From Streptomyces sp. AM 2-1-1 (lineage in GTDB: Bacteria > Actinomycetota > Actinomycetes > Streptomycetales > Streptomycetaceae): a stretch of DNA of 64,000 bases. The position numbers were made by a program, and so were the translations under genes. The DNA lies in assembly GCF_029167645.1 (NCBI RefSeq), contig NZ_CP119147.1:806001-870000 (forward strand), written 5' to 3'. Below, one piece after another: positions 11,587 to 37,883 of this stretch; position 1 is the stretch's first letter; every line of letters begins with the position of its first letter. The notes beneath the pieces are model-generated. The model did not search any database and was not told the DNA's origin. It was given only the letters and a program-made list of their open reading frames with translations.

Positions 11587-11593
11587 CCGGCGC

Positions 11594-20065: not shown

Positions 20066-22354
20066 TCAGCCGGGGTGCGGCACCTCCACGGTGCCCGTTC
20101 CCGCCACCGTGGCGCCCGTCTCCTCGACCGTGACGCGGTACGGCCGGCCGCTGCCCTCCGCCGTGACCCGTACGCCGTCGGCGTCGCGGGTGACGTGGAA
20201 GGTCGCGGCGGGTTCGCCGGTCGGGCCGGGGAGTACGACCGTGGTCGTGGTCGTCCCGGACACCGGGGCGGGGCCGTAGGTCCGCAGGGTGAGGTCGGCG
20301 AGCCAGTCGCCGTCCGGGCGCTGGTCGTCACCGCTCCAGGGGAGGATCGCGCCGGGCCGGACGAAGAGCGGCAGGCTGTCGAAGCCGTGCGTCTCGTGGC
20401 GCCAGGCCGGGCCGGTGACCGTCTCGCCGGTGAGCAGGTGGGTCCAGGTGCCCTCGGGGAGGTAGTACTCCACCTCTCCCTCGGCCGAGAAGACCGGGGC
20501 GACGAGCAGGTCCGGGCCGAGCATGTACTGCCGGTCCAGGGTGCGGGTCGCCGGGTCGTCCGGGAACTCCAGCAGCATCGGGCGCATCACCGGGACGCCG
20601 GTGCGGTGCGCCTCGACGGCGGCGCCGTAGAGGTACGGCATGAGGCGGTGCTTCAGCAGGGTGAACTGCCGGGTCACGTCGACCGCTTCCTCGCCGAACT
20701 CCCACGGCACGCGGTAGGAGACGTTGCCGTGGAGGCGGCTGTGCGAGGAGAGGAGGCCGAAGGCGAGCCAGCGTTTGAAGACGGCCGGGTCGGGGGTGCC
20801 CTCGAAGCCGCCGATGTCGTGGCTCCAGAAGCCGAAGCCGGAGAGGCTCAACGACAGTCCGCCGCGCAGGGATTCGGCCATCGCGTTGAAGGAGGCGAAG
20901 CAGTCGCCGCCCCAGTGGACGGGGAACTGCTGGCCGCCGGCGGTCGCCGAGCGGGCGAAGAGGACGGCCTCGCCCTGGCCGCGCTCCTTCTCCAGGAGGT
21001 CGAAGACGGCCTTGTTGTAGATCTGCGCGTAGTAGTTGTGCATCCGGTGCGGGTCGGAACCATCGTGCCAGACCACCTCGGTGGGGATGCGCTCGCCGAA
21101 GTCGGTCTTGAAGCAGTCGACGCCCTGGTCGAGCAGGACCTTCAGCTTGCTCTGGAACCAGGCGGTCGCCTCGGGGTTGGTGAAGTCGACCAGCGCCATG
21201 CCGGGTTGCCAGAGGTCCCACTGCCAGATGTCGCCGCCCGGCTTGCGGACCAGGTATCCCTTCTCGGCCCCCTCGGCGAACAGGGCCGATTTCTGGGCGA
21301 TATAGGGGTTGATCCACATGCTGATGCGCAGTCCGCGCTCCTTGAGGCGGGCCAGCATCCCCTCCGGGTCGGGGAAGACGTCCGGGTCCCAGAGGAAGTC
21401 CGACCACTGGTACTCGCGCATCCAGAAGCAGTCGAAGTGGAAGACGGAGAGCGGGATGTCACGTGCCGCCATCCCCTCCACGAAGGAGGTCACCGTCCGC
21501 TCGTCGTAGGAGGTGCAGAAGGAGGTGGTGAGCCAGAGGCCGAAGGACCAGGCCGGCGGCAGCGCGGGGCGGCCGGTTAGCGCGGTGTAGCGGGCGAGGA
21601 CGTCCTTGGGCGTCGGGCCGGCGACGACGTAGTACTCCAGTGTCTGGTCCTCGACGCTGAACTGGACCTGGCCCACGGATTCGGAGCCGACCTCGAAGGC
21701 CACCTTGCCGGGGTGGTTGACGAAGACGCCGTAGCCGCGCGAGGAGAGGTAGAACGGGATGTTCTTGTACGCCTGCTCGCTGCTGGTGCCGCCGTCCGCC
21801 TGCCAGACGTCGACGACCTGGCCGTTCTTCACGAACGGGGTGAAGCGCTCCCCGAGTCCGTAGACGTTCTCCCCGACGCCCAGGGCGAGTTGCGCGATCA
21901 TGTGGTGGGAGCCGTCGGAAGTGGTGGCGAAGGCGGTGCCCTTGCGGTCGGCCCCGGTGAGCCGGCGGCCGTCCGCGTCGAGGAAGGTGAGGCCCCAGGG
22001 CCCGTCCTGGTCGAGTCGCAAGGTCAGCGGCCCGCTGGTGAGTTCGGCGACCGGGCCCTCCCGCACGGTGCGTACCGCCGCCTGCGGCACGGGGTCCGCC
22101 GACAGCTCGAAGTCCGGGCCGCGGTGGACCTTCCCCGCGTGGTGGGTGGCGCGGACGCCGATGACGCCCTCCGCGGGAGAAAAGCATTCGACCGTGATCA
22201 GCGGGGTGTTGAGGGTGTCGCCGCGCCCGGTGACCCGCATGACCGCCGCGTGGGCGGTGATCCGGTCGGCGTCCACGCGCAGGTCGCGGATCTCGGTGGC
22301 GTAGGAGGCGCTGACCCCCTCCCGCATGAGCCAGAATCCGTCGGTGAACTTCAT
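20066..22354 (-). CDS. yicI: Alpha-xylosidase, glycoside hydrolase family 31 (YicI/XylS type)
   Basis: A 762-residue GH31 enzyme matching E. coli YicI in length and order of regions. The nucleophile is Asp418 in CFKTDFGERIP, identical to the YicI context around Asp416. The substrate-pocket sequences FHFDCFWMREYQWSDF and GFWSHDIGGFEG, also typical of alpha-xylosidases, are present. There is no signal peptide, so it acts in the cytoplasm. The enzyme removes alpha-1,6-linked xylose from the non-reducing end of xyloglucan oligosaccharides. It is the second gene of an operon with the GH3 beta-glucosidase (64-nt gap), which together peel xylose and glucose alternately. Expected to be controlled from the operators at 25384 and 25564. 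Confidence 0.93.
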   Translation of the reverse strand: MKFTDGFWLMREGVSASYATEIRDLRVDADRITAHAAVMRVTGRGDTLNTPLITVECFSPAEGVIGVRATHHAGKVHRGPDFELSADPVPQAAVRTVREGPVAELTSGPLTLRLDQDGPWGLTFLDADGRRLTGADRKGTAFATTSDGSHHMIAQLALGVGENVYGLGERFTPFVKNGQVVDVWQADGGTSSEQAYKNIPFYLSSRGYGVFVNHPGKVAFEVGSESVGQVQFSVEDQTLEYYVVAGPTPKDVLARYTALTGRPALPPAWSFGLWLTTSFCTSYDERTVTSFVEGMAARDIPLSVFHFDCFWMREYQWSDFLWDPDVFPDPEGMLARLKERGLRISMWINPYIAQKSALFAEGAEKGYLVRKPGGDIWQWDLWQPGMALVDFTNPEATAWFQSKLKVLLDQGVDCFKTDFGERIPTEVVWHDGSDPHRMHNYYAQIYNKAVFDLLEKERGQGEAVLFARSATAGGQQFPVHWGGDCFASFNAMAESLRGGLSLSLSGFGFWSHDIGGFEGTPDPAVFKRWLAFGLLSSHSRLHGNVSYRVPWEFGEEAVDVTRQFTLLKHRLMPYLYGAAVEAHRTGVPVMRPMLLEFPDDPATRTLDRQYMLGPDLLVAPVFSAEGEVEYYLPEGTWTHLLTGETVTGPAWRHETHGFDSLPLFVRPGAILPWSGDDQRPDGDWLADLTLRTYGPAPVSGTTTTTVVLPGPTGEPAATFHVTRDADGVRVTAEGSGRPYRVTVEETGATVAGTGTVEVPHPG

Positions 22355-22418
22355 GAGGACTCCTTGCCCGGGGCGGTGGTGAGCGGATGCTGGGCTGCCG
22401 CGGTGCGCTGGTGCCGGG

Positions 22419-25301
22419 TCACTCGGACTCCCCCGGCGCGTCGAAGGTGAGCCGGGCGAGGCGCAGGGCCCCGCGCAGGGTGACCCGCAGGTCCGCCACC
22501 CCGGTCGCGGCGAACTCCGCGGTCACGGCGCGGTAGGCGTACGGGCCGTCGGTGGCGGGGACGGTGACGACGGCGCGGGCTGTGTCGGTCCCGATCTCGA
22601 CCGTGCCCTCGCCGGACGCGTGGACAGTGACACGGTGCACGCCCCGCCCGAAGTCGCAGCGTTCGAAGACGAGCAGCCCGCCGGCCGCGTCGGCGCCGGT
22701 GGGGGTGACCGCGTCGCCGTCGGTCTTCGCCCGGTCCACGATCGCCGTGCCGCGCTGCTCGTCGTAGTCGGCCGCTTCGAGGCCGGCGGCGAGGACGGGG
22801 CGGGGGCCGGAGGGCTCTCCGCCGAGCTCCACCGCGGTGGTGAGCCGGATGTCCGTGCTGGACGCCCCGGCCAGGAGTTCGTAGCCGCCCGGCTCCACGG
22901 TCCAGCGGCCGTGCGCCACGTCCCAGTGACCCAACTCGGCGACCGGCACCAGGAACTCGATCCGCCGGGAGGCTCCGGGGGCCAGGTGCAGCCGCCGGTG
23001 GCCGACCAGTGTGCGCAGCGGCAGCCGGGTGGCGGCGGAGCCGGTGCGGCGTACGTAGAGCTGGGCGACCTCGTCGGAGGCGGCCCCGCCGCCGTGGGTG
23101 ACGGTGAGGGCGACCCGGAGCAGGTCGTCCTCGCGGGTGACGGTGAGCTCCTCGTACCCGAAGGAGGCGTAGGAGAGGCCGTGGCCGAAGGGGTAGAGCG
23201 GGGTGCCGTCGAAGTAGAGGTACGTCTGGCGGGAGCCGATGACGTCGTAGTCCAGCAGGTCCGGCAGGTCGGCGTCGGAGGCGTACCAGGTCTGGGGGAG
23301 CCGCCCGGCCGGGGAGACGTCGCCGGCGAGGATCCGGGCGAGCGCGGTGCCCGCGGCCTGGCCGCCGTGCGCGGTCCACAGCAGCGCGGGGAGGGTGGCG
23401 TGGGCCTCCGGCACGGCGTACGGGTAGGCGGAGGTCAGCACGAGCACGGTCCGCGGGTTGGCGGCGTGCGCGGCCCGCCAGAGGTTCTCCTGCTGGGCGG
23501 GGAGGGCGAGGGTGGTGCGGTCCTCGGTCTCACGGCCGTTGATGTGCGGGTCGTTGCCCGCGACGACGATCACCGTGTCGGCTTCGGCGGCGACCCGTGC
23601 GACCTGGTCCGCACCGCGCTCGACGGTCTCGACGCCGAAGACGGTGGCCCGGCCGGCGGAAATCTTTTCGCCGTTCTCGGCAACCTTTGCGCCGTCGGCG
23701 GCGACAGACACGTACCCACCCGTACCGATGTGCAGAAGGCGGTGTCCCGCGTCGTGTCCCCCGACCGCTTCCAGGCGGAACGTCTCCTGGACGACCCAGC
23801 CTCCCGGCTCCTCGGCGGAGGCGCGCACGAAGCCGTCCTCGGCGACCGAGAGGTGGAGCCCTTCGTCGGTGCGCAGGGTCAGCACGCCGTCGCCCCAGTC
23901 GATCAGGGCCAGGGCGGTGCCTTCGGGGGCGGCGACGAGCGGCGGGAGGTCGGTGCGGCCGGTGAGGAGCGCCGGGTCGAGCGCGCCTTCCTCACCGAGG
24001 GCCGCGCCGGTGTCCACCGGTGCCGCGGGTACGAGGAGGCGACCGCCGGAGCAGGTCAGCAGGACCCGGTCGACGCCCTCGGCGTACAGCACGTCGTCGG
24101 CGCCGTAGCGGGCCCGCGCTCCGTCGAGCGGAGTGGAGCGGTGCAGCAGGGTGCCGCTGTACCAGTCGAGCTTGCAGGCGTCGGCGAGCAGCCCGACGAC
24201 CGCGATCTTGCGTCCCGCGCGCGGCGCGAGCGGCAGCAGACCGTCGTTCTTGAGCAGGACGGCGGCCTGTTCGGCCGCTTCCAGGGCGAGGGCCCGGTGT
24301 GCGGGGGTGTCGAAGTCGTCGGTCCCGGCGTAGGGGTCCAGCTCCGGGTCGAACTCGCCGAGCGAGAAGCGCAGCGCCAGCAGCCTGCGTACCGCCGTGT
24401 CGATGTCCTCGGGGTCGAGCAGCCCTTTGTCGAGCGCGTCGCGGATGCGTCCGGTCATCACGGAGGAGTCCGTGCCGTGGTCGGTGAAGCTGTCGACCCC
24501 GGCCTTCAGGGAGGCGGCGGTGGCCTCCTCGTGGGTGTCGAAGTAGTGCTCGGAGTCGACCAGATTGGAGGGGGCGCCGGCGTCGGAGCAGACGACGAGG
24601 GACTGGTCGGTCCACTGCCGCAACTGCTGGTCCAGGAGCGGGGAGACGTGGTTGGGGCGCCCGTTGACGAGGTTGTAGGCGGGCATGACCCCGGCGACCG
24701 CGCCGGCGCGTACCGCGTCGCGGAAGGCGCGCAGGTCGTACTCGTGCAGGACACGGGGGCGCACGGAGGAGGAGGCGGTGTCGCGGTCGGTCTCGTTGTT
24801 GTGCGCGAGCCAGTGCTTGAGGACCGGGGCGGTGCGCCAGTAGCGGGGGTGCTCGCCGCGCAGGCCGCGGGTGTACGCGACGGCGATGGCGGAGGTGAGC
24901 GCGGGGTCCTCGGAGTACCCCTCCTCACCGCGTCCCCACAGGGGGTGGCGCAGGAGATTCACTGTCGGGGCCCAGACGTTGAGGCCGACCCTCTCGTCGC
25001 TCCGGCGCTTGGCCCGGACCTCGTTGCCCACGGCTTCGCCGACGCGGCGCACCAGGTCGTCGTTCCACGTGGCGCCGAGGCCGACGGCCTGGGGGAACAC
25101 GGTCGCCCCGCCCATCCAGGCCACCCCGTGCAGCGCTTCCTGGCCGGTGCGGAAGGCGGCCAGGCCCAGTCGCTCGACCGGGGGCGTGAACTGGTGGAGC
25201 ATCGCGATCCGCTCGTCCGGCGTGAGCCGCTGGAGCAGGTCGTCGATGCGCGCCCCGAAGGGCTGCTGCGGGTCTCGGAAGGGCAGCGGATGGTCCGTCA
25301 C
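22419..25301 (-). CDS. Beta-glucosidase-like glycoside hydrolase family 3 with extra domains
   Basis: About 960 residues. The GH3 N-domain (residues ~15-320) carries the predicted nucleophile Asp in VVCSDAGAPSN near 240 and the KHWLAHNNE and GRGEEGYSEDP substrate loops. The GH3 C-domain starts near 345 and is interrupted at about 470-580 by a beta-trefoil/fascin-like insert (LHLSVAEDGFVRA; GGYVSVAADGAKVAE). The usual Fn3-like domain follows (AQLYVRR; PGASRRIEFLVPV), then a C-terminal CBM6/35-like segment (FGRGVHRVTVHASGEG). No signal peptide is seen, so it is cytoplasmic. It should remove terminal glucose after GH31 has removed xylose. GTG 25301 was chosen because AAGGGGA stands 7 nt upstream; ATG 25343 would add 14 residues. 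Confidence 0.88.
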   Translation of the reverse strand: MTDHPLPFRDPQQPFGARIDDLLQRLTPDERIAMLHQFTPPVERLGLAAFRTGQEALHGVAWMGGATVFPQAVGLGATWNDDLVRRVGEAVGNEVRAKRRSDERVGLNVWAPTVNLLRHPLWGRGEEGYSEDPALTSAIAVAYTRGLRGEHPRYWRTAPVLKHWLAHNNETDRDTASSSVRPRVLHEYDLRAFRDAVRAGAVAGVMPAYNLVNGRPNHVSPLLDQQLRQWTDQSLVVCSDAGAPSNLVDSEHYFDTHEEATAASLKAGVDSFTDHGTDSSVMTGRIRDALDKGLLDPEDIDTAVRRLLALRFSLGEFDPELDPYAGTDDFDTPAHRALALEAAEQAAVLLKNDGLLPLAPRAGRKIAVVGLLADACKLDWYSGTLLHRSTPLDGARARYGADDVLYAEGVDRVLLTCSGGRLLVPAAPVDTGAALGEEGALDPALLTGRTDLPPLVAAPEGTALALIDWGDGVLTLRTDEGLHLSVAEDGFVRASAEEPGGWVVQETFRLEAVGGHDAGHRLLHIGTGGYVSVAADGAKVAENGEKISAGRATVFGVETVERGADQVARVAAEADTVIVVAGNDPHINGRETEDRTTLALPAQQENLWRAAHAANPRTVLVLTSAYPYAVPEAHATLPALLWTAHGGQAAGTALARILAGDVSPAGRLPQTWYASDADLPDLLDYDVIGSRQTYLYFDGTPLYPFGHGLSYASFGYEELTVTREDDLLRVALTVTHGGGAASDEVAQLYVRRTGSAATRLPLRTLVGHRRLHLAPGASRRIEFLVPVAELGHWDVAHGRWTVEPGGYELLAGASSTDIRLTTAVELGGEPSGPRPVLAAGLEAADYDEQRGTAIVDRAKTDGDAVTPTGADAAGGLLVFERCDFGRGVHRVTVHASGEGTVEIGTDTARAVVTVPATDGPYAYRAVTAEFAATGVADLRVTLRGALRLARLTFDAPGESE

Positions 25302-25383
25302 GTGCGGTTCCCCTTGGAAAGGTGGGAGGTTTAGCGGAGCCATGGGCCTCTACGGCTCCGTCGGTACATCGTCGAGCGCTCTT

Positions 25384-25397
25384 TCGAAGCGCTTCGA
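25384..25397. promoter_or_regulatory. LacI-type operator, copy 1
   Basis: TCGAAGCGCTTCGA, a perfect 14-bp palindrome, 83 bp upstream of the GH3 start. The CG-centred GAAGCGCTTC core is typical of LacI-family sites. The same core occurs at 25564, 37769 and 37870. Confidence 0.85.
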
Positions 25398-25563: not shown

Positions 25564-25577
25564 TCGAAGCGCTTCGA
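25564..25577. promoter_or_regulatory. LacI-type operator, copy 2
   Basis: A second exact copy of TCGAAGCGCTTCGA, 226 bp upstream of the solute-binding protein gene and 180 bp from copy 1. With copy 1 it probably controls both divergent operons, possibly through a DNA loop. Confidence 0.85.
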
Positions 25578-25802: not shown

Positions 25803-27512
25803 ATGACGCCGAATTCCTCCCCCGCCGCGAACCGGTCCGCGAGCGACGCTCCGGGCCTCCGCGCCGTGACGCCGAATCGTCGGAGCTTCCTCGCTTCGAG
25901 CGCTTTCGCCGCGGTGGCCGTGGCGGGCGGCGTACCGCTGCTGGCCGCGTGCGGCGGTTCCGGCTCCGACTCGGGGACCCGGGAGGGCACGACGACCGGC
26001 AAGGCCCTCAACAAGGTCGTGCCGAGTTACGTCCCCTCCGAGCTGGTGAAGCCCGACGTGGCCAGTGTCAACGGGTCGAGCCCCGGTTTCGCCGAGCTGC
26101 CCGACCCGTTGGCGAAGTCGGTCAAGTCCGTTCCTGGCAAGGGCTCTACCTTCCGGGTCATGACCCCGCTGTGGGGCACCGTCCCGAAGAAGAACAACCC
26201 GTACTACAGCGCGGTCAACAAGGCCGTCGGTGCGACGCTCACCTTCGACCCGCAGGACGGCAACACCTACCAGGACAAGATCGGCGCCGTCCTCGCCGGT
26301 GACGACATCCCGGACGCGGTGACCATCCCCGGCTGGAACATGCAGGGCCAGATCCGCAACGCCATCACCGCGAAGTTCGCCGACCTCAGCCCGTACCTGG
26401 CCGGCGACGGGGTGAAGAAGTACCCGAACCTCGCCAACATCCCCACCGGCGCCTGGCAGTACTCGGTCTTCGGCGGCAAGCTGCGCGGCCTTCCCATGCC
26501 GTCGCCGGTCATCGGCAACGCGCTCTTCTACCGCAAGGACCTGGTCGGCTCCGGCGCGGTCCCGGCCAGCGCCGACGACCTGCTCGCCTTCGGCAAGGAG
26601 TACACGGCGCCGAAGAGCAAGGTCTGGGCCTTCGACGACCTGTGGACCTGCATCCAGAAGATCTACGGTGTGCTGCCCGACGCCCCGCACTACTGGCAGC
26701 TCCAGGACGGCAAGCTCGTCCACAAGATCGAGACGAAGGAGTACCGGGAGGCCCTGGCCTTCGCCCGCAAGCTCCACGACCTCGGCTACGTCCACCCGGA
26801 CGCCGAGGCGAACAAGGACGCGGACTCCAAGATCCGCTTCACCAGCGGCCACATCGTCATGTACAACGACGGCACCGGCGGCTGGAAGGGCATGGTGACC
26901 GAGCAGAAGGCCGCCAACCCGAAGTTCGACATGCAGGCACTCGACTTCTTCTCGGCCGACGGCGGCAAGCCCGTCCTGTGGCAGGACGACCCGGCCGGCA
27001 TCTACACCTTCCTCAGCAAGAAGCTTCCCAAGGCGAAGATCGAGGAGTTCCTCGCCATCGCCGACTTCGCTGCCGCCCCGTACGGCACCGAGGAGTTCAT
27101 GCTCACCAACTACGGCGTCGAGGGCACCCATTACCGCGTGAAGGACGGCGTCCCGACCTTCACGGACCAGGGCATCCAGGAGGCCCAGCCCTCCACCTTC
27201 CTCTTCCTCGCCTCCCCGCCGCACACCATCGCCTTCCCCGACGAGCCGAAGCTGGTGCAGGACTACGCGGGGTGGATGGCCCGGCAGGCGCCGCACATCA
27301 AGAAGCCGCTCTTCTTCGGCATGCAGATCGTCGAGCCGCAGCGGTACGCCTCCCTCTACACGCCCTTCGACGACCTGCAGAAGGACATCCGGCGCGGCCG
27401 CAAGAAGGTCGGCGACCTGGAGGCGGCGGTGTCGACGTGGAAGCAGAGCGGTGGCGACGAACTCCGCACGTGGTACCAGGACATCCTCGACAAGAACGGC
27501 TCCGGCAGCTGA
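25803..27512 (+). CDS. Extracellular solute-binding lipoprotein for xyloglucan oligosaccharides (inferred)
   Basis: A 569-residue binding protein, large as is usual for oligosaccharide receptors of the LipO/YtcQ type. Its N-terminus has a twin-arginine motif (Arg26-Arg27 in PNRRSFLAS) followed by a lipobox LLAAC with Cys50, so it should be a Tat-exported lipoprotein. The mature part shows typical sugar-receptor features (GNTYQDKIGAVLAGDDIPD; LFYRKDLVGSG; MYNDGTGGWKGM). AAGGG stands 8 nt before ATG 25803. It heads an operon with two permeases and three glycoside hydrolases. The assignment of xyloglucan oligosaccharides as ligand rests on those neighbours only. Confidence 0.88.
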   Translation: MTPNSSPAANRSASDAPGLRAVTPNRRSFLASSAFAAVAVAGGVPLLAACGGSGSDSGTREGTTTGKALNKVVPSYVPSELVKPDVASVNGSSPGFAELPDPLAKSVKSVPGKGSTFRVMTPLWGTVPKKNNPYYSAVNKAVGATLTFDPQDGNTYQDKIGAVLAGDDIPDAVTIPGWNMQGQIRNAITAKFADLSPYLAGDGVKKYPNLANIPTGAWQYSVFGGKLRGLPMPSPVIGNALFYRKDLVGSGAVPASADDLLAFGKEYTAPKSKVWAFDDLWTCIQKIYGVLPDAPHYWQLQDGKLVHKIETKEYREALAFARKLHDLGYVHPDAEANKDADSKIRFTSGHIVMYNDGTGGWKGMVTEQKAANPKFDMQALDFFSADGGKPVLWQDDPAGIYTFLSKKLPKAKIEEFLAIADFAAAPYGTEEFMLTNYGVEGTHYRVKDGVPTFTDQGIQEAQPSTFLFLASPPHTIAFPDEPKLVQDYAGWMARQAPHIKKPLFFGMQIVEPQRYASLYTPFDDLQKDIRRGRKKVGDLEAAVSTWKQSGGDELRTWYQDILDKNGSGS

Positions 27513-27615
27513 CCGTACGCGGCAGTCGGCAGGACCCACGCAGAGACGGAAGTGGCCGCCGGGCGCAGTGACGCCCGGCGGCCGGGGCGGAGCAGCACGA
27601 CATGGGGAGCTCACG

Positions 27616-28770: not shown

Positions 28771-29747
28771 CGACTTCCCTGGACCTCGACAAGACGCCCG
28801 GCGGGTGGCCCGTGGACTCCGCCCCCGCCCGTACCCCGCTCCAACGCCTCCTCGGCACCGAGCAGCGCCCCGTCTGGGAGGACGAGCCGACCAGGACCGG
28901 CCTCGCCTTCAAGGGCTTCGGTCTCTTCGCGATCTGCGCGGTGATCCTCGTCCCGATCTGGGTCGTGGTCGTCACCAGCCTCTCCGACACCAAGGCCATC
29001 AACGACGCGGGAGGTCTGGTCGTCTGGCCGAAGACCATCACCTTCGTCGCGTACAAGGAGCTGCTGAGCGGCGGCGCCGTCACCCGGGCCGCGATGGTCA
29101 GCATCGGACTGACCGTCGTCGGCACGGTGTTCAGCATGGTGATCTCGATCCTCTGCGCCTACGGCCTCAGCCGGCGCGACTCGATCGCCCACCGGCCGCT
29201 GCTGATGACGCTCATGGCGACGATGTTCTTCGGCGCCGGGCTCATCCCCACGTACCTGCTGGTGACCGGGATCGGTCTGAGCAACAGCTACTGGTCGATG
29301 ATCCTGCCGAGCGCGATCTCCGTGTTCAACATCCTGGTGCTCCGCGGCTTCTTCATGGACACCGCGCCCGAACTCATCGACGCGGCGCGCATCGACGGCG
29401 CCGGCGAGTGGCGCATCCTGCTCCAGATCGTCATGCCGCTCTCCCGCGCGGTGGTCGCGGTCATCTCGCTCTTCTACGCGGTGGGTTACTGGAGCCAGTG
29501 GTTCAACGCCATGCTCTACATCCAGGACAGCGACAAGTACCCGCTGCAGATGATCCTCCGTCAGCTGGTGCTCCAGCACCAGGTTCCGCCGGGTGCGATG
29601 GGCGCGGCCGTGAGCAGCGGCCAGATCAACAGCCTCGCCGTGCAGATGGCCGTCATGGTCCTCGCGCTGATCCCGGTGGCCGTGCTGTCGCCGTTCGTCC
29701 AGAAGCACTTCCAGAAGGGGATGCTCACCGGGGCCGTGAAGGGCTGA
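28767..29747 (+). CDS. ABC sugar-importer permease, second subunit
   Basis: A 326-residue permease of the LplC/YtcP class with six helices (GLFAICAVILVPIWVVVVTSL; MVSIGLTVVGTVFSMVISILC). The EAA-type docking loop is ELIDAARIDGAGEWRILLQIVMP near residue 205. The C-terminus QKHFQKGMLTGAVKG is characteristic of this subunit. It overlaps the first permease by 4 nt and is followed after 99 nt by the GH74 gene, so it belongs to the same transcription unit. Together the two permeases form the channel for the lipoprotein receptor. Confidence 0.92.
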   Translation: MTTSLDLDKTPGGWPVDSAPARTPLQRLLGTEQRPVWEDEPTRTGLAFKGFGLFAICAVILVPIWVVVVTSLSDTKAINDAGGLVVWPKTITFVAYKELLSGGAVTRAAMVSIGLTVVGTVFSMVISILCAYGLSRRDSIAHRPLLMTLMATMFFGAGLIPTYLLVTGIGLSNSYWSMILPSAISVFNILVLRGFFMDTAPELIDAARIDGAGEWRILLQIVMPLSRAVVAVISLFYAVGYWSQWFNAMLYIQDSDKYPLQMILRQLVLQHQVPPGAMGAAVSSGQINSLAVQMAVMVLALIPVAVLSPFVQKHFQKGMLTGAVKG

Positions 29748-29846: not shown

Positions 29847-32165
29847 ATGTCCGCGTTCCGTTCCGAAGCACACCCCGCCCTGCCCGGCCCCGACGCCCCT
29901 GGCGCCGCACCCTCGTCGCCCGCCCGCCGGTCCGTGCTCGCCGGGGCCGCCGCCGTCGCCGCGGCCGTCTGCGTCCTGCCCGGCGCCCACGCGGCCTCGG
30001 CGGCACAGCGGCCCTCGGACGGCTCCCGTCCTTCCGGCGGGTCGCGGACCGAGGCGTACCGCTGGCGGACCGCCGCCATCGGCGGCACCGGCTTCGTCAC
30101 CGGGCTGATGTTCCACCCCTCGGTGCGCGGCCTGGCCTACGCCCGGACGGACATCGGCGGGGCGTACCGGTGGGACGCCGCGAAGGCCCGCTGGACGGCG
30201 CTCACCGACTTCACCGGCTGGGACGACTGGAACCTCCTCGGCGTCGAGGCGATGGCCGTGGACCCCGCCCACCCGGACCGGGTCTACCTCGCGCTCGGTA
30301 CGTACGCCCAGTCCTGGGCCTCGCCGGGGGCGGTGCTGCGCTCGGAGGACCGCGGCAGGACGTGGAGCCGCACGGACCTGACGGTGCGGCTCGGCGCCAA
30401 CGAGGACGGCCGGGGCACCGGTGAACGCCTTCTGGTCGACCCGCGCGACAGCGAGACCCTCTGGCTGGGCACCCGCCACGACGGTCTGCTGCGCTCCGAC
30501 GACCGGGGTGCCACCTGGGCGCCGGACCCCTCCTTCCCCGCCGTGCCCTCGGCGTCGGGTCAGGGGGTCACCCTGCTGGTGGCGGCCGGCCGGACGGTCT
30601 ACGCGGGCTGGGGGGACGGCACCGCCTCCCTCTACCGCACCACCGCGGCCGGCGGCTGGGAGCCGGTCCCCGGCGCGCCGGCGGCCGGAGGGGCGACGCG
30701 GGTGCCCGTCCGTGCCGCGTACGACGCCGCCTCCCGCGCCCTGTACGTGAGCTGGGCGAACGGCCCCGGCCCCAACAACCAGAGTGACGGCGCGGTGCAC
30801 CGCCTCTCCACGGTGACCGGCGCCTGGTCGGACGTGACGCCCGTCGCCCCGTCCGGCGCCGACGCCTTCGGCTACGGCGGGGTCGCCGTGGACGCGAGGC
30901 GGCCCGGCACGGTCGTGGTCTCCACCAACAACCGCTGGGGGCCGGTCGACACGCTCTTCCGCTCCACCGACCACGGGCGCACCTGGACCTCCCTCAAGGA
31001 CTCCGCGGTGCTGGACGTGGCGGAGACGCCGTACCTGCGCTGGGGCGGCGAGGCGAAGTTCGGCTGGTGGATCCAGGCCGTCGCCGTCGACCCCTTCGAC
31101 TCGCGCCACGTCGTCTTCGGTACCGGCGCGACGGTCTTCGGCACCCGGGACCTGGTGCACTGGGCGCCGGAGATCCGCGGCCTGGAGGAGTCGTCCGTAC
31201 GCCACCTGATCGCGCCGCCCACCGCGCACGGTGCCCGGCTGCTCAGCGGGCTCGGGGACATCGGGGTGATGTACCACGACTCGCTGACCTCCTCCCCCTC
31301 ACGCGGGATGGCCACCCACCCGGTGTTCGGCACCGCCACCGGGCTGGCCCTGGCGGCGCGTGTCCCCTCCTACGTCGTACGGACCGGCTGGCCCTCGGGG
31401 TCGGACGCCGCCGGGGCGTACTCGCACGACGGCGGGTCCAGCTGGCAGCCGTTCGCGGCCCAGCCGGAGATCGCTGCCTCCGCACCGGGCCCCATCGCGG
31501 TGAGCGCCGACGGGAAGACCCTTCTCTGGACGTTCATCCACTGGGACGGCACGAAGTACCCCGCGCACCGCTCCACCGACGGAGGCGCGAGCTGGAGCGA
31601 GGTGACGACGTTCCCGAAGGGCGCGACCCCCGTCGCCGACCCGGTGGAGGCCACCCGCTTCTTCGCGTACGACACGGACACCGGCACCGTCCACCTCTCC
31701 ACCGACGCGGGCGCGTCGTTCACCGTCGGCGCCACCGGACTCCCCTCCGGCGACGCGCAGTTCAAGCTGGCCGCCGCGCCGGGGCGGTCCGGCGACCTCT
31801 GGCTGTCGGCGAAGACCGGCGGACTGCACCGCTCGACGGACGGCGGGCGGACGTTCTCGGCCGTGGCCGGCGTCCAGGAGTCGTATGCGCTGGGCTTCGG
31901 CAAGGCGGCGCCTTCCCCGAAGAGCCGTCCCGCCCGCCCGGGCGCCGGTTATCCCGCGATCTTCCAGACGGGACGGGCGGCCGCGACCCACGACGGGGTG
32001 GCGGTGCTGCGCTCCGACGACGCGGGTGCCACCTGGATACGCGTCAACGACGACCAGCACCAGTGGGGGTGGACCGGTGAGGTGATCACCGGCGACCCCC
32101 GTGTCCACGGCCGGGTGTATCTGGGCACCAACGGCCGGGGCATCCAGTACGCCGACCCGGAATGA
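29847..32165 (+). CDS. Secreted endo-xyloglucanase, glycoside hydrolase family 74
   Basis: A 772-residue enzyme. The N-terminus has a twin-arginine-type signal (ARRSVLAGAAAVAAAVCVLPGAHA, cleavage near residue 50). The remainder folds as two seven-bladed propellers with many SxDxGxTW-like blade signatures (SEDRGRTW, STDGGASW, SDDAGATW). The two catalytic acids of GH74 are at their expected places: Asp102 in ARTDIGGAYRW and Asp471 in SGLGDIGVMYH. The enzyme cleaves the beta-1,4-glucan backbone of xyloglucan outside the cell. No carbohydrate-binding module follows. GGAAGGAC lies 7 nt before ATG 29847, favoured over 29829. Its stop overlaps the GH42 start (ATGA). Confidence 0.94.
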   Translation: MSAFRSEAHPALPGPDAPGAAPSSPARRSVLAGAAAVAAAVCVLPGAHAASAAQRPSDGSRPSGGSRTEAYRWRTAAIGGTGFVTGLMFHPSVRGLAYARTDIGGAYRWDAAKARWTALTDFTGWDDWNLLGVEAMAVDPAHPDRVYLALGTYAQSWASPGAVLRSEDRGRTWSRTDLTVRLGANEDGRGTGERLLVDPRDSETLWLGTRHDGLLRSDDRGATWAPDPSFPAVPSASGQGVTLLVAAGRTVYAGWGDGTASLYRTTAAGGWEPVPGAPAAGGATRVPVRAAYDAASRALYVSWANGPGPNNQSDGAVHRLSTVTGAWSDVTPVAPSGADAFGYGGVAVDARRPGTVVVSTNNRWGPVDTLFRSTDHGRTWTSLKDSAVLDVAETPYLRWGGEAKFGWWIQAVAVDPFDSRHVVFGTGATVFGTRDLVHWAPEIRGLEESSVRHLIAPPTAHGARLLSGLGDIGVMYHDSLTSSPSRGMATHPVFGTATGLALAARVPSYVVRTGWPSGSDAAGAYSHDGGSSWQPFAAQPEIAASAPGPIAVSADGKTLLWTFIHWDGTKYPAHRSTDGGASWSEVTTFPKGATPVADPVEATRFFAYDTDTGTVHLSTDAGASFTVGATGLPSGDAQFKLAAAPGRSGDLWLSAKTGGLHRSTDGGRTFSAVAGVQESYALGFGKAAPSPKSRPARPGAGYPAIFQTGRAAATHDGVAVLRSDDAGATWIRVNDDQHQWGWTGEVITGDPRVHGRVYLGTNGRGIQYADPE

Positions 32166-34159
32166 GGATCGAGAACACCATGCCGTCCCTGCGTGACGCG
32201 ACCCGCGGCCGCCTGCTCTTCGGCGGCGACTACAACCCCGAGCAGTGGCCCGAGGAGGTGTGGGCCGAGGACGTCGCGCTGATGAAGGAGGCCGGGGTCA
32301 ACTCGGTCACCCTCGGCGTCTTCTCCTGGGCGAAGATCGAACCGCGCCCGGGAGCACGCGAGTTCGACTGGCTGGACCGGTTGATGGATCTGATGGACTC
32401 CCACGGCATCGGGGTGGTCCTCGCCACACCGACCTCGTCCCCGCCGCCGTGGATGGGTGCGCTGCACCCGCAGACGCTGCCGCGGGCGGAGGACGGCTCG
32501 GTCGTCTGGTACGGCTCGCGCCAGCACTTCTGCGCCAGTTCACCGGTCTACCGCCGCTACGCCGCCTCGCTCACCGAGGACCTCGCGGCCCGCTACGCCG
32601 GCCATCCGGCGCTGGCCATGTGGCACATCAACAACGAGTACTGCACACACTGCTGGTGCGACGAGACGGCCGCGCACTTCCGCCGCTGGCTCGCCGACCG
32701 GTACGGCACCCTCGCCGCGGTCAACGAGGCCTGGGGCACCGCCTTCTGGAGCCAGCGGTACGACACCTGGGCGGAGATCCTGCCGCCCCGCAAGGCGCAG
32801 TACACGCACAACCCCACCCAGGTGCTCGACTTCAAACGGTTCACCTCGAACGCCCTGATGGAGTGCTACACCGCCGAGCGGGACATCGTGCGGCGCCACT
32901 CCCCCGCCGTCCCCGTGACGTCCAACTTCATGCCGCTCTGGTCGGGGCAGGATGCGTGGGCGTGGGCCGCGCAGGAGGACGTCGTCTCGGTGGACGTCTA
33001 CCCCGACCCGGCGGACCCGGGGGCGGGGCAGTACCAGGCGATGCTCGCCGACATGACGCGCTCGCAGGCGGCCGGGCCGTGGATGCTGATGGAGCAGGCC
33101 GCCGGCGCCGTCAACTGGCGGCCGGTGAACCACCCCAAACCCCGGGGCCTCAACCGGCTCTGGTCACTGCAGTCGGTGGCCCGGGGCGCGGACGCCGTCT
33201 GCTACTTCCAGTGGCGCCAGTCCCGGCAGGGCTCGGAGAAGTTCCACTCCGCGATGGTGTCGCACGCCGGACCCGAAGGCCGGTCGTTCCGGGAGATCAC
33301 CCGCATCGGCGCCGAACTCGCCACGCTCGCCCCGGAGGTGAGTGGCGCGCACGCGCCGGCCGAGGTGGCCGTGCTGCACGACTGGGACGCCTGGTGGGGC
33401 AGCGCGCAGGAGGGCCGGCCCTCCTCGCACCTTCAGTACCCGGAGATCGTACGGGCCTGGCACCGGGCCCTCTGGGAGAACGGCACGGCGACCGACTTCG
33501 CCCGTCCCGAGGCCGACCTGTCCGGCTACCGGATGGTCGTCGTCCCGCAGCTCTACCTCCTGACCGACGCGGCCGTGGACAACCTGGTCGCGTACGTCGC
33601 GGGGGGCGGCACCCTGGTCAGCGGCTTCTTCACCGGCGTCGCCGACGTGGACGACCGCATCCGGCCGGGCGGGATGGACGCCCGGCTGCGCGCGCTCTTC
33701 TCCATCCGCACGCTCCACGAGTGGTGGCCCGTGGAACCGGACGCGAGGGTCACCTGCGACGGCTTCCGAGGACTGCTGTGGTCGGAGGAGTTGGAGGCCG
33801 ACGGCACCGGCGAGACCGTCGCCGCGTACGTGGGCGGGGAGTTGGACGGACTGCCCGCCGTGCTCCGCAAGGGAGGCGCCTGGTACGTCTCGACGCTCCC
33901 GGAACCGGAAGCGCTGCGCGAACTGCTCGGCCGGGTCGCCGGGGAGGCGGGCGTACGCCCCGTGGTCGCCGGACTTCCCGCGGGCGTCGAGGCGGTACGC
34001 CGGGGCGGCCTGCTCTTCCTCTTCCACCACGGGCGCGGCACGGTGACCGTGCCGTTGCCGGGCGCGCACGTGGACGTGCTCACCGGGGCGCGGGCGGAGG
34101 GAGCGGTGGAGCTGGGGCGCTTCGGCGTGGCGGCCCTGAAGCCGGCCGGCGCGGCATGA
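32162..34159 (+). CDS. Beta-galactosidase, glycoside hydrolase family 42
   Basis: A 665-residue GH42 enzyme. The acid/base is Glu159 in WHINNEYCTHCWC and the nucleophile Glu311 in MLMEQAAGAVNW. The cysteines Cys124, Cys161, Cys164 and Cys166 match the zinc cluster of this family. A trimerisation domain (about 400-600) and a C-terminal beta domain follow. No signal peptide, so cytoplasmic. In this locus it should remove the beta-1,2-galactose that caps xylose in xyloglucan L-type side chains. ATG 32162 overlaps the GH74 stop; an internal ATG at 32180 is possible. The stop overlaps the GH95 start. Confidence 0.92.
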   Translation: MRIENTMPSLRDATRGRLLFGGDYNPEQWPEEVWAEDVALMKEAGVNSVTLGVFSWAKIEPRPGAREFDWLDRLMDLMDSHGIGVVLATPTSSPPPWMGALHPQTLPRAEDGSVVWYGSRQHFCASSPVYRRYAASLTEDLAARYAGHPALAMWHINNEYCTHCWCDETAAHFRRWLADRYGTLAAVNEAWGTAFWSQRYDTWAEILPPRKAQYTHNPTQVLDFKRFTSNALMECYTAERDIVRRHSPAVPVTSNFMPLWSGQDAWAWAAQEDVVSVDVYPDPADPGAGQYQAMLADMTRSQAAGPWMLMEQAAGAVNWRPVNHPKPRGLNRLWSLQSVARGADAVCYFQWRQSRQGSEKFHSAMVSHAGPEGRSFREITRIGAELATLAPEVSGAHAPAEVAVLHDWDAWWGSAQEGRPSSHLQYPEIVRAWHRALWENGTATDFARPEADLSGYRMVVVPQLYLLTDAAVDNLVAYVAGGGTLVSGFFTGVADVDDRIRPGGMDARLRALFSIRTLHEWWPVEPDARVTCDGFRGLLWSEELEADGTGETVAAYVGGELDGLPAVLRKGGAWYVSTLPEPEALRELLGRVAGEAGVRPVVAGLPAGVEAVRRGGLLFLFHHGRGTVTVPLPGAHVDVLTGARAEGAVELGRFGVAALKPAGAA

Positions 34160-36558
34160 GCCGGTCCACCGGCAACCCGTCCCCCCGGAAGCCGTACACC
34201 CCGAACCCGTCCACCCCGGCTCCGTCCCTCCCGAACCCGTCCACCTGGGAGCCCCGTCCCGCCGCCCGCTGGGAGGACGCCTTCCTCAGCGGGAACGGGC
34301 ACCACGGGGCGATGGTCCACGGAGACCCCGCCGACGACCGGGTGATCGTCAACCACCACACCCTGGTCCGCCCCAACGGCAGCGAGGACCTGCGCCCGCC
34401 GGAGCTCGCCGGGGAACTCGGACCGCTCCAGGACGCCCTGCTCTCCGGTAACACCCGGGCGGCCGAGCGCTTCGGCGCGGGCAGCCCGCTGGTGTGGGTG
34501 CAACCCTTCCATCCGGCGTTCCAGACCCGGGTGCGGCGCGCCCCGGCGGAGTCCGGGACGCCGTTGGGAGCCGGGGCGGGGGCGCACGGGACGGCTCACG
34601 CGGGAGCCGGGCCGGAGGCGGAGTACACGGCTCCGGCCGGAACGGCCACCGGCCCGTCCTACCGACGAGAGCTGGATTTCACCTCCGGCGAGACCGTCGC
34701 CTCCCACGGTCCCTGGCGCAGTCGTGTCTTCGTGTCGCGGGCCGACGACGTGATCGTCCAGCACATCACCGGCCCGGCGGCGGACACCGAGGTCTGGCTC
34801 GACCCCGTCCTTCCCGGCGCTCCGGCGAACCTCGCGGTCGGCCGGTCGACGGTGCTGACCCCGCAGGGCGCCCGGATCGCCCTGCGTCTGCGCTACCCGG
34901 AGAGCGATCTCTCCTGCACCGGGGTGTCGGTCCTGCGGGCGGAGGGCGGAACGGTCTCCGTGAGCGGCGACGGGGTCCGCGTCGCCGGAGCCCGGAGCCT
35001 GCTCCTCCTGACCCGTGTGCGCCGCTCCCCCGGTGAGCCCGACCTCGACGCCGAGTGGGCGGCCCTGCCGGACGACGATTACGACGCCTTGATGGCACGT
35101 CACCTCCCGCTGCACCGGAGCGCCTTCGGCCGGTGCGCGCTCACGCTGCACGACGAGGACCCGGCGCGGCAGGGTCTCCCGGGCAGTGAGCTGCTGCGCC
35201 ACCCGGGCAGTCCGGCCCTGCTGGAGCGGCTGTTCGCGGCGGGCCGCTACCACGTGCTGTCCGCCTCGGGTGCGCTGCCGCCCCGACTGACGGGGGTGTG
35301 GACGGGGGACTGGGACACCGCCTGGTCAGGGGCGTTCACCACCAACGCCAACCTCAACCTCCAGGTGGCGTCGGCGACCGCCGGCAACCTTCCCGAGGTG
35401 CTGGACGCCCACGCGCGCCTGATAGAAGGTCAGTTGGACCACTGGCGTGAGAACGCCCGGGCTCTCTTCGGGGCCCGGGGCATCGTCGCGCCCTCCCACT
35501 CGGACGGGGAGTCGGGCCGCACCCGCCACTTCCAGCGGGCCTACCCGCTGCACCTGTGGACTGCGGGCGCCGACTGGCTGCTGCACCCCCTGTGCGAACA
35601 GGCGCAGTGCCGAGGGGCCGCACCGGAGGCGCTGGTCTCGGCGTGCGCGGAAGTGGCCGACTTCTACACCGACTTCCTCACCCGTGAGGGTCCCGACGGA
35701 GCCGTGGCGATCGTCCCCTCGTACTCGCCGGAGAACCGCCCGGAGAACGCGAGTTGGGGCACGCTCAACGCCACGATGGACATCGCCGCCGCCCGGCACG
35801 CCCTCACCACCGCTGCGGAGCTGGCCCCGGCGCACCCGGACGCGGACCGCTGGCGGGACCTCGCCGGCCGGCTTCCGCGCTACCGGATCAACGCCGACGG
35901 CGCACTGGCGGAGTGGGCGTGGCCCGGGCTCCGCGAGACGTACGACCACCGCCACCTCAGCCACCTCTACCCGGTCTGGCCGCTCGACGAGATCAACCCG
36001 TACGACACTCCCGGGCTCGCCGCTGCCGCGCACCGCGCCCTGGAACTGAGGGGTTCGGAGAACGACTCGGCCCACGGTCATCTGCACCACGCGCTCGTCG
36101 CGGCGCGGCTGCGGGACGGTGCGCGGGTCTCCGCCGCGCTGGCGTCGGTCCTGGACGGTGACTTCTTCCACGACTCGCTGATGAGCGCGCACTACCCCGA
36201 CCGGAACGTCTACAACGCGGACGCCGCCCACGCGTTGCCGGCCGTCGTGCTGGAGATGCTCGTCCAGTCCGCGCCGGGCCGCCTGGTCCTGCTGCCCGCG
36301 CTCCCGGCCGCGTATCCGAGGGGCGCGCTCCGGGGCGTCCGCACGCGGTTCGGCGCGGTGCTCGACCTCGTCTGGACCCCCGAGGAGATCACCGCCTCGT
36401 TGCGCCCCACCCGCGACGCGCGCATCGAGCTGCGTACGGGCCCGCCCCCCGGATCTCCGGCCGGCCCGGCGGAACCCGGCGAGGCATCCTGGGTCACCCT
36501 CACCGCCGGGGCCGACCGGGTACTCACGCTGCGGCGAAGGGCGACCGGCGGCCGGTGA
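34156..36558 (+). CDS. Glycoside hydrolase family 95 (probable alpha-L-fucosidase or alpha-L-galactosidase)
   Basis: An 800-residue GH95-like enzyme. The N-terminal beta domain begins with the family motif WEDAFLSGNGHHGAMVHG at about 36. The (alpha/alpha)6 barrel includes TTNANLNLQ with Asn397 and Asn399, the pair that activates water, and SYSPENRP with Glu526, the general acid. Asp689 in NADAAHALP aligns with the catalytic Asp of the usual DGNFGG motif, but the surrounding residues differ. It has no signal peptide; the first 35 residues are a low-complexity P-N-P-S-T tract. ATG 34156 overlaps the GH42 stop. Expected role: removing alpha-1,2-fucose (or L-galactose) from F-type xyloglucan side chains; the altered motif leaves specificity open. 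Confidence 0.85.
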   Translation: MSRSTGNPSPRKPYTPNPSTPAPSLPNPSTWEPRPAARWEDAFLSGNGHHGAMVHGDPADDRVIVNHHTLVRPNGSEDLRPPELAGELGPLQDALLSGNTRAAERFGAGSPLVWVQPFHPAFQTRVRRAPAESGTPLGAGAGAHGTAHAGAGPEAEYTAPAGTATGPSYRRELDFTSGETVASHGPWRSRVFVSRADDVIVQHITGPAADTEVWLDPVLPGAPANLAVGRSTVLTPQGARIALRLRYPESDLSCTGVSVLRAEGGTVSVSGDGVRVAGARSLLLLTRVRRSPGEPDLDAEWAALPDDDYDALMARHLPLHRSAFGRCALTLHDEDPARQGLPGSELLRHPGSPALLERLFAAGRYHVLSASGALPPRLTGVWTGDWDTAWSGAFTTNANLNLQVASATAGNLPEVLDAHARLIEGQLDHWRENARALFGARGIVAPSHSDGESGRTRHFQRAYPLHLWTAGADWLLHPLCEQAQCRGAAPEALVSACAEVADFYTDFLTREGPDGAVAIVPSYSPENRPENASWGTLNATMDIAAARHALTTAAELAPAHPDADRWRDLAGRLPRYRINADGALAEWAWPGLRETYDHRHLSHLYPVWPLDEINPYDTPGLAAAAHRALELRGSENDSAHGHLHHALVAARLRDGARVSAALASVLDGDFFHDSLMSAHYPDRNVYNADAAHALPAVVLEMLVQSAPGRLVLLPALPAAYPRGALRGVRTRFGAVLDLVWTPEEITASLRPTRDARIELRTGPPPGSPAGPAEPGEASWVTLTAGADRVLTLRRRATGGR

Positions 36559-36665: not shown

Positions 36666-36671
36666 CGCGGG

Positions 36672-37682
36672 TCACACCGCGGGCGCCGGTCCCGTGCTCG
36701 CTCGTACCGTCAACTCCGGTGCGATCAACTCGACTTCGTCCGATCCCTGGCCGGTGAGCTTGGCCACCACCAGCTCGACCGCGCGGCGCCCCATCTCCTG
36801 CGCGGGGATGGCCACGGTGGTGAGCCGCACCGAGGCCTCCACCGCCACCTGTTCGGGACAGACCGCGACGACCGACACGTCCTCGGGGACGGCGCGGCCC
36901 TGCTGCTGGAGGAGGTTGAGCAGCGGTTCCACGGCGGACTCGTTCTGGACGATGAACCCGGTGGTGCCGGGCCGCTCGTCGAAGATGCGGGAGAGCGTCT
37001 GCGTCATGGCCGCGTACCCGCCCTCACTGGGCCGGTGCAGTACGGTCACCCCGGTCTCCCGCGCCTTGGCCCGGATGCCGTCGATGGTGCGCTCGGCGAA
37101 GCCGGTGTGGCGTTCGTAGACGGCGGGGGCCTCGCCGATCACCGCGACCTCCTGGTGCCCGAGTTCGGCCAGGTGCTCCAGGCAGAGCGCCCCGGTCGCC
37201 TCGAAGTCGAGGTCCACACAGGTCAGACCGGAGGCGTCGGCGGGCAACCCGATCAGGACGGAGGCCCGCTGAGCGCCCCTCAGCAGGGGAAGGCGCTCGT
37301 CGTGCAGCTCCACGTCCATGAGGATCATCGCGTCCGCCAGCGAGCTCCCGGCGATCCGCCGGACCGCGGCGGGGCCCTCCTCTCCGGTGAGGAGCAGCAC
37401 GTCGTAGCCGTGGGTGCGAGCGGTCGTCGCCACCGCGATGGCGATCTCCATCATCACCGGCACGTACATGTCGGTGCGCAACGGCACCATCAACGCGATG
37501 ATGTTCGAACGGCTGCTGGCGAGCGCGCGCGCCCCGGCATTGGGGTGGTAGCCGAGTTGCTGGATGCTGAGTTCCACGCGCTCCCGGGTGGGGGCGGAGA
37601 TGGACCGCTTCCCGCTGAGGACGTAGCTCACCGTGCTCGCGGAGACTCCGGCGTGCTGGGCGACCTCGGCCAGGGTGACCAT
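36672..37682 (-). CDS. LacI-family regulator of the xyloglucan locus
   Basis: A 336-residue LacI protein. The HTH is at residues 2-22 (VTLAEVAQHAGVSASTVSYV) with the hinge LSGKRSISAPTRERV and the minor-groove segment around ARALASSRS. The periplasmic-binding-like sensor domain begins with NIIALMVPLRTDMYVPVM. ATG 37682 is used; the longer frame to 37829 would run into the operator region and shows no domain. GGGAG lies just upstream. Two copies of the palindrome also found in front of the GH3 and importer operons stand upstream of this gene, so it most likely represses itself and both operons until a xyloglucan-derived sugar binds. Confidence 0.9.
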   Translation of the reverse strand: MVTLAEVAQHAGVSASTVSYVLSGKRSISAPTRERVELSIQQLGYHPNAGARALASSRSNIIALMVPLRTDMYVPVMMEIAIAVATTARTHGYDVLLLTGEEGPAAVRRIAGSSLADAMILMDVELHDERLPLLRGAQRASVLIGLPADASGLTCVDLDFEATGALCLEHLAELGHQEVAVIGEAPAVYERHTGFAERTIDGIRAKARETGVTVLHRPSEGGYAAMTQTLSRIFDERPGTTGFIVQNESAVEPLLNLLQQQGRAVPEDVSVVAVCPEQVAVEASVRLTTVAIPAQEMGRRAVELVVAKLTGQGSDEVELIAPELTVRASTGPAPAV

Positions 37683-37768
37683 GCGCTCTCCCTTACGGGT
37701 GACAGATGAGAAGTGACGGACGACGGGTGCCGTGCGGCAGTGGTGCGGAGGGCGGAACGCGAGCAGCG

Positions 37769-37782
37769 TTGAAGCGCTTCGA
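37769..37782. promoter_or_regulatory. LacI-type operator, copy 3
   Basis: TTGAAGCGCTTCGA, one base different from the perfect palindrome of copies 1 and 2. It lies 87 bp upstream of the LacI start. Confidence 0.8.
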
Positions 37783-37869
37783 AGCGGGCCGCTTTCTCGT
37801 CGCAGCCCCTCTGACGTGCAGATATCCAAGCGAGCCTAGACCGACTCCTGTGAACTGTCCAGAGAAACG

Positions 37870-37883
37870 TTGAAGCGCTTCGA
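37870..37883. promoter_or_regulatory. LacI-type operator, copy 4
   Basis: TTGAAGCGCTTCGA again, 101 bp from copy 3 (close to ten helical turns), so looping between the two is conceivable. Confidence 0.8.

Follow-up and report, generated by a model that had tools for sequence, protein, structure and literature searches.

How might a streptomycete take up and dismantle the plant polysaccharide xyloglucan, and are the genes for this task assembled in one place? The question is raised by nine genes of Streptomyces sp. AM 2-1-1, whose 7.2-Mb genome lies in two contigs. We analyzed a stretch of 64,000 nucleotides (hereafter the window; G000:C1:806001-870000, GC content 72.7%), in which a first-pass annotation had described a compact, self-contained xyloglucan utilization locus (XyGUL). 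Streptomycetes are leading decomposers of plant litter, hence the interest of such a locus; a described Streptomyces xyloglucan locus, modular or otherwise, was not found in the literature searched, to which subscription papers mostly did not belong.

A probable LacI-controlled xyloglucan utilization locus

All nine predicted genes are present at positions 20066-37883 (Table 1). They encode glycoside hydrolases (GHs) of families GH31, GH3, GH74, GH42, and GH95, a lipoprotein receptor exported by the twin-arginine (Tat) pathway, two permeases, and a LacI-family repressor. The genes form three units: GH3-GH31 reads leftward, the receptor or solute-binding protein (SBP) reads rightward with the two permeases, GH74, GH42, and GH95, and lacI reads leftward. 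Genes for an endo-xyloglucanase, an oligosaccharide importer, an alpha-xylosidase, and a galactosidase all lie together here, as in a XyGUL in the broad sense. Given the gene content, motifs, operators, and conservation read from the genomes, the cluster is very probably a Streptomyces XyGUL that combines cutting outside the cell, oligosaccharide import, cytoplasmic digestion, and LacI control.

We infer the enzyme substrates, order of action, ATPase partner, repression, and inducer as follows. The secreted GH74 would cut the xyloglucan backbone into oligosaccharides, which the SBP would capture and the two permeases import whole, with energy from an MsiK-type ATPase that is encoded elsewhere and shared. 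In the cytoplasm, GH95 would probably take off fucose and GH42 galactose, and the YicI-type GH31 and GH3 would alternate in removing non-reducing-end xylose and exposed glucose, respectively. Freed xylose could go to the products of xylA and xylB, encoded 4 kb from the alpha-xylosidase gene. LacI, bound to four palindromes of 14 bp, would repress each of the three units until an imported sugar released it.

Xyloglucan, also the substrate named in the first-pass annotation, is the best-supported and a very likely one, because GH31 exceeds an alpha-xylosidase cut-off, GH74 carries both catalytic Asp residues, and the operator recurs in relatives near YicI-type and GH74 genes. GH31 scores 1218.7 bits against the alpha-xylosidase model NF007940, about twofold its cut-off of 606, matches the YicI structures 8t7z and 1we5 (E 5e-282 and 1e-280), and retains the KTDFGER and HWGGDC segments. 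GH74 aligns over its full length with solved xyloglucanases such as 6p2m; no carbohydrate-binding module (CBM) was found in it. Its TDIGG and GDIG segments, whose Asp residues we take to be the catalytic pair of GH74, line up with 6p2m and 4lgn. The first segment is present in all 56 GH74 proteins compared (55 orthologues and that of the window); all eight of the most frequent variants (48/56) retain the second. The second Trp of the WW pair of 6p2m is replaced by Gly, Ala, or Ser in the eight commonest variants (44/56), a hint that processivity may be lower. GH42 has the features of a typical beta-galactosidase. Signal peptides, judged by eye from the protein N-termini without a predictor, support the proposed division into one secreted and four cytoplasmic enzymes: GH74 carries the twin-arginine motif ARRSVLAG, and none was seen in GH31, GH3, GH42, or GH95.

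A constant operator shared by three units

The pattern TTGAAGCGCTTCGA, allowing up to two mismatches, gives eight matches at four palindromic sites in the window, against a mean of 0.16 and a maximum of 3 in shuffled windows. Two sites lie in the divergent GH3/SBP gap and two upstream of lacI. A genome-wide search, made for exact copies only, returned TYGAAGCGCTTCGA at just these four sites, and a reversed-pattern control returned 0; the earlier suggestion that the three units share operators is borne out. The encoded repressor matched 17 NCBIfam models, nearly all of them LacI-family regulators, below their cut-offs. Control by CebR was considered and rejected, since the operators read TYGAAGCGCTTCGA and not the CebR box TGGGAGCGCTCCCA (PMC5332605), which differs from the operator TCGAAGCGCTTCGA at four positions.

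With GH95 as the query, 84,980 species genomes were searched for close relatives only; 154 relatives were found, of which the best 80 were retained (labels such as L010 denote their loci or genomes). By name, 78 of these are Streptomyces, one is [Kitasatospora] papulosa, and one is "Actinobacteria bacterium OK074". GH95 matches of at least 59% identity occur in 12 of 24 other genomes of the same genus and in none of 16 genomes of other genera. In answer to the gene-order search proposed earlier, the 80 relatives keep, as far as each is in view, the order GH3-SBP-permease 1-permease 2-[GH74]-GH42-GH95-...-LacI. GH42 was seen in 78 of the 80 loci, GH3, SBP, and permease 2 in 75 each, permease 1 in 73, and LacI in 64, many of the missing genes, only part of which were checked, reflecting contig or flank edges. 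The GH3/SBP gap holds exactly two operators in all 75 loci that have both genes in view, with an identical 14-mer at 150/150 sites. Two operators also precede lacI in all 63 loci that have lacI and its upstream region in view; among these 126 sites, 63 carry the same 14-mer and 63 differ in the first two bases only. Across the 80 loci (1.71 Mb) there are 283 GAAGCGCTTC cores, 276 of them at conserved operator positions. So constant an operator provides a handle for genome searches for the regulon.

Beyond the cluster, TCGAAGCGCTTCGA is present in 75 of 121 genomes of the genus, that of the window included. We hand-picked 20 distant copies among the matches listed and read 8 kb (less at contig ends) around each. 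Ten lie near a YicI-type alpha-xylosidase gene (eight copies, 50-68% identity) or within 4 kb of a GH74 gene (two copies). The YicI-type genes are accompanied by matches to ATP-binding cassette (ABC) permeases in L110, L113, L121, L122, and L125, and by a LacI paralogue in L116, L119, and L126; for L116 and L126, Pfam also confirms a major facilitator superfamily (MFS) gene. In L118, the operator lies about 590 bp upstream of the GH74 gene, and in L112, GDSL-esterase and GH74 genes follow it downstream. This repeated partnership with alpha-xylosidases supports an alpha-xyloside/xyloglucan regulon independently of the annotation of the cluster, and the copies at YicI operons possibly mark a second uptake system for alpha-xylosides (isoprimeverose?) within one regulon. 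Of the other copies, those of L114 and L124 have genes for a LacI paralogue and an MFS protein close by, those of L127 and L129 a LacI 82-84% identical to that of the window (the L127 copy may belong to the cluster itself, split over contigs), and that of L115 lies between a GH36-like and a GDSL-esterase gene. The GDSL esterases of L112 and L115 carry ricin-type beta-trefoil domains and are candidate acetyl-xyloglucan esterases, which the cluster lacks. In L117, L120, and L123, the copy sits inside a dihydrodipicolinate-synthase-like gene and is probably conserved coding sequence.

Endo-enzymes inside and outside the cluster

In most relatives, a secreted GH12 directly follows GH95; in the window it is absent and lacI comes next. 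Both endo-enzyme slots are in view in 78 loci (77 loci and the window; L047, L069, and L085 were left out as cut). With thresholds of 400 aa for GH74 and 120 aa for GH12, 50 of them hold both enzymes, 19 GH12 only, 4 GH74 only, and 5 neither, so that 73/78 clusters have GH74, GH12, or both. The GH74-only loci are the window, L020, L056, and L012, whose partial GH12 of 118 aa falls just under the threshold; the GH12 of L019 is partial as well (129 aa).

Several observations weigh against reading the cluster as a XyGUL. The cluster GH74 is missing in 23/75 relatives, which led us to reject the idea that it is essential to the cluster; both endo-enzymes are missing in L013, L015, L022, L028, and L077, and L077 also has no GH42 between permease 2 and GH95. 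The window genome holds a second YicI-type GH31 (G000:C1:1303374-1305617, 81% identical to that of the cluster) and a second GH74 (C1:1464158, 44% identical, open frame of 1058 aa) without an exact operator copy. Five of the 20 distant copies of the operator are located within seemingly unrelated genes (L111, L117, L120, L123, L128). A search at E 1e-20 of ten stretches of 20 kb, taken from other genomes on the expected side of the cluster, turned up neither xylA nor xylB and may have missed a xylA closer in or farther out; a general linkage was rejected on this ground. Finally, the isolate Alt3 did not grow on tamarind xyloglucan (PMC11475409), and the type strain of its nearest species, S. 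atroolivaceus, carries the locus (L014). The same study reports growth on this substrate for four of six Streptomyces isolates and places Alt1, Alt2, and Alt4 nearest to S. poriferorum, whose type strain also carries the locus (L021).

The losses of GH74 would suit a salvage locus, fed with oligosaccharides by the general cellulase and hemicellulase secretome, with its own endo-enzyme optional and a small alpha-xyloside as inducer. GH74 remnants of 40-191 aa, which we read as gene decay in place, lie between permease 2 and GH42 in L015, L019, L023, L028, L037, and L039. Of nine hand-picked genomes whose cluster lacks GH74, eight hold a GH74 elsewhere (44-45% identical) and that of L028 holds none; three further hand-picked genomes (twelve in all) show their cluster GH74 copy. 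The second GH74 of the window genome and the recurrence of the operator at YicI operons with their own transporter point in the same direction. However, the great majority of clusters keep at least one secreted endo-enzyme (the 73 counted above), and the GH74 of the window sits inside the operon. We regard salvage as rather unlikely and retain the reading of a XyGUL that cuts its own substrate.

A GH12 gene elsewhere in the window genome likewise has no exact operator copy. With this gene, the second GH74, and the second GH31, the cluster appears to be regulated as one block, yet it is not the sole such equipment of the genome. These copies and the missing ATPase (see below) make the earlier term "self-contained" too strong.

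Predicted cytoplasmic digestion

In the GH3 enzyme, for which a GTG start at 25301 preceded by AAGGGG is likelier, an insertion of about 150 aa interrupts the C-terminal domain, and the protein also has a fibronectin type III (Fn3)-like domain and a C-terminal CBM6. The insertion (about residues 425-575) looks beta-trefoil-like by eye, and both it and the CBM6 are unusual for a cytoplasmic enzyme. The protein reaches no NCBIfam cut-off, those for glucosidases included: its best model is that of the xylosidase Xyl3A (446 bits, cut-off 1250), and BglX gives 231.8 bits (cut-off 666). An AF2 model (mean pLDDT 64, pTM 0.49) was not used. Since its nearest solved relatives are beta-xylosidases and no cut-off is reached, the proposed removal of glucose rests on the precedent of Ruminiclostridium cellulolyticum.

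Among these solved relatives, further down the list, are the isoprimeverose-producing enzymes 5yot and 21ji. GH3 might accordingly release Xyl-alpha-1,6-Glc from the oligosaccharide end, leaving the YicI-type GH31 to split the disaccharide. The isoprimeverose-producing enzyme of the actinomycete Oerskovia has a CBM6 (PMC6325624), as does the cluster GH3, and a Pfam scan of GH31 showed no PA14 domain, the domain described for xyloglucan-oligosaccharide alpha-xylosidases (PMC8245568). Nevertheless, GH3 scores better with beta-xylosidases than with isoprimeverose-producing enzymes, its CBM6 alone matched only the xylanase CBM6 1gmm (E 0.008) and not 21ji, and Glu3A of R. cellulolyticum is reported to be unable to start on XXXG before Xyl31A has acted (PMC4780118). 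This route seems unlikely to us, and alternation of GH31 and GH3 remains the preferred order.

The cluster GH95 belongs, by its sequence, to a divergent clade. Its best solved match is 7kmq, a Xanthomonas alpha-1,2-L-fucosidase, both by sequence (2e-47) and by predicted fold (E 6.5e-39, TM score 0.76), the model being good in fold only, with active-site loops at pLDDT <50. The enzyme is probably an exo-glycosidase of the alpha-L-fucosidase kind. It could instead have changed specificity or mechanism and act, for example, on another 6-deoxy- or L-sugar. Its N-terminal and active-site segments depart from those of solved GH95 enzymes, with VNHHTLVRP where 7kmq shows LNEDTLY, and of the two Asn residues named as catalytic bases in Xanthomonas GH95 (PMC8245568), the first (position 397 in the window protein) is Asn in 37/81 sequences and Asp in 44/81. 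The second Asn, in contrast, is retained in 81/81, and the Glu of SPEN and the Asp of YNADAAH are kept too, the latter by hand alignment (the phmmer alignment places it one column off), and the closest solved chain on both counts is a xyloglucan alpha-1,2-fucosidase. Such a change is rather improbable, and fucose removal stays our probable assignment. That the locus covers every bond type, as proposed earlier, is overstated, given a GH3 under all cut-offs, a divergent GH95 of putative sugar specificity, and no acetyl-esterase in the cluster.

An importer with a presumably borrowed ATPase

At the N-terminus of the SBP are a twin-arginine motif (NRRSFL) and a lipobox (LLAAC), both read directly. 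Its sequence alone gave zero matches in the PDB, and a profile of 25 orthologues produced weak matches to Lmo0181 (4e-6), to sugar SBPs, and to AlgQ1 (3e-4). The Anaerocellum bescii SBP structure 9PMY was absent from the sequence-search matches, and the copy searched may lack it. The AlgQ1 match and the length of the protein suggest kinship with Cluster G as described in PMC12710961. The true start of permease 1 is uncertain, near 27552-27610. The cluster lacks an ATPase gene, and the importer must borrow this component; genome-wide, a single MalK/MsiK-type gene exceeds the OB_MalK cut-off (C1:3969744, 378-aa open reading frame (ORF)), and a second match falls below it. One ATPase serves several importers in A. 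bescii (PMC12710961), and a CebEFG-MsiK importer is named for Streptomyces (PMC5332605).

Possibly exchangeable parts

The alpha-xylosidase, too, occupies one of two slots, either as a YicI-type GH31 left of GH3 or as a different GH31 of 689 aa, which falls short of the alpha-xylosidase cut-off, near lacI. Of 19 loci with both slots in view, the window included, 9 hold the YicI type only, 7 the other only, 3 neither, and none both; the loci that show the left slot are mainly GH74-less ones, and the alternation could stem from clade inheritance. Four more loci have the YicI type with lacI out of view. L103 and L104 have a YicI-type GH31 to the left of the cluster, encoded on the strand opposite to that in the window.

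The importer falls into two types: SBP identity to the window is above 75% in 13 loci and below 60% in 62, with none between. Between L010 and L007, identity is 51% for SBP and 69% for permease 2, against 91% for GH3 and 87% each for GH74, GH42, and GH95, a pattern compatible with an importer exchanged as one cassette; the SBPs of L007 and L009, which share an importer type, are 90% identical. Tentatively, and with considerable doubt, we propose a genus-wide LacI-controlled regulon built as a plug-in chassis, with a core of GH3, GH42, GH95, LacI, and four operators, exchanged endo-enzymes (GH74, GH12), alpha-xylosidases, and importer cassettes, possibly tuned to the xyloglucan of different plants, and with a GH95 clade of new specificity. 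Natural swaps of importer and endo-enzyme on a constant background would allow the match between importer specificity and backbone cutter to be tested.

Comparison with known systems

Bacteroides XyGULs handle the whole of xyloglucan from one locus, with SusC/D-type capture at the surface. No SusC/D or TonB-dependent receptor is found among the cluster genes of the window, and the contrast drawn in the first-pass annotation is fair; the logic of selfish ABC uptake is not new, being already known in Gram-positives (PMC4780118, PMC12710961). Worth following are the modular construction across the genus, the constant operator dedicated to the cluster, and the divergent GH95.

In R. cellulolyticum, xyloglucan oligosaccharides are imported whole through an SBP and two permeases and degraded by cytoplasmic Gal42A, Xyl31A, and Glu3A, a GH31, GH3, and GH42 set that degrades XXXG; sections 8-9 of the paper name no ATPase, and its Figure 12 legend marks alpha-fucosidase genes in similar clusters (PMC4780118). 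Its endo-enzymes, however, belong to the cellulosome and are treated separately from the cluster, which is governed by a two-component system (PMC4780118). The window cluster is not of exactly this type, as none of its nine genes encodes a two-component regulator and LacI is present instead. Similar import is proposed for A. bescii, where Athe_2052-2054 comprise an SBP of 551 aa and two permeases served by a promiscuous ATPase encoded elsewhere, with a GH31 nearby; there, GH74 (CelF) and GH42 lie apart and a putative fucosidase is "not far" (PMC12710961).

The Xanthomonas XyGUL likewise unites GH74, GH31, and GH95, adjoins xylA and xylB, and has a few members without GH74. It differs in TonB-dependent uptake, GH35 instead of GH42, a CE20 esterase, a PA14-bearing GH31, and a locus described with no beta-glucosidase gene (PMC8245568). 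The CebR cellulose regulon of Streptomyces resembles the present one in its repressor, a 14-bp palindrome centered on GCGC, and an MsiK-powered importer, but covers CBM2-type cellulases and, by the table of the paper, probably a GH74-CBM2 (PMC5332605). A tomato study linked plant loci to variants in many Streptomyces genes, Xgh74A and alpha-xylosidase genes being among them (PMC9203511).

Coordinates and neighboring genes

Table 1. Features of the cluster and its xyl neighbors (window positions)
Feature	Position	Strand	Basis
GH31 alpha-xylosidase, YicI type, predicted cytoplasmic	20066..22354	-	NF007940; 8t7z/1we5
GH3 exo-glycosidase, predicted cytoplasmic, CBM6 at C-terminus	22419..25343	-	PF00933, PF01915, PF14310, PF03422
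Operator TCGAAGCGCTTCGA next to GH3-GH31 unit	25384..25397	.	pattern scan of window and genome; relatives
Operator TCGAAGCGCTTCGA, transporter side	25564..25577	.	pattern scan of window and genome; relatives
SBP, Tat-exported lipoprotein, 569 aa	25803..27512	+	PF13416; motifs read directly
ABC permease 1 (listed ORF)	27451..28770	+	PF00528 6.8e-16
ABC permease 2	28767..29747	+	PF00528 within longer open frame; UgpE-like, below cut-off
GH74 endo-xyloglucanase, predicted secreted, twin-arginine signal	29847..32165	+	6p2m E 3e-138, other xyloglucanases
GH42 beta-galactosidase, predicted cytoplasmic	32162..34159	+	PF02449 2.9e-146, trimerization domain; 9ta3 E 7e-160
GH95 exo-glycosidase, probably alpha-L-fucosidase, predicted cytoplasmic	34156..36558	+	PF22124; 7kmq
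LacI-family repressor	36672..37682	-	NCBIfam models below cut-off; N-terminal helix-turn-helix read directly
Operator TTGAAGCGCTTCGA upstream of lacI	37769..37782	.	pattern scan of window and genome; relatives
Second operator upstream of lacI	37870..37883	.	pattern scan of window and genome; relatives
xylA xylose isomerase (neighbor)	13113..14282	-	TIGR02631 701 bits, cut-off 447
xylB xylulokinase (neighbor)	14481..15971	+	TIGR01312 404.5 bits, cut-off 380

To the left of the cluster, a ROK repressor gene, xylA, and xylB occupy positions 11447-15971, and the xylA product is a possible consumer of the released xylose. Farther left, at 4729-6062, lie two dioxygenase genes, one of them protocatechuate 3,4-dioxygenase beta-like.

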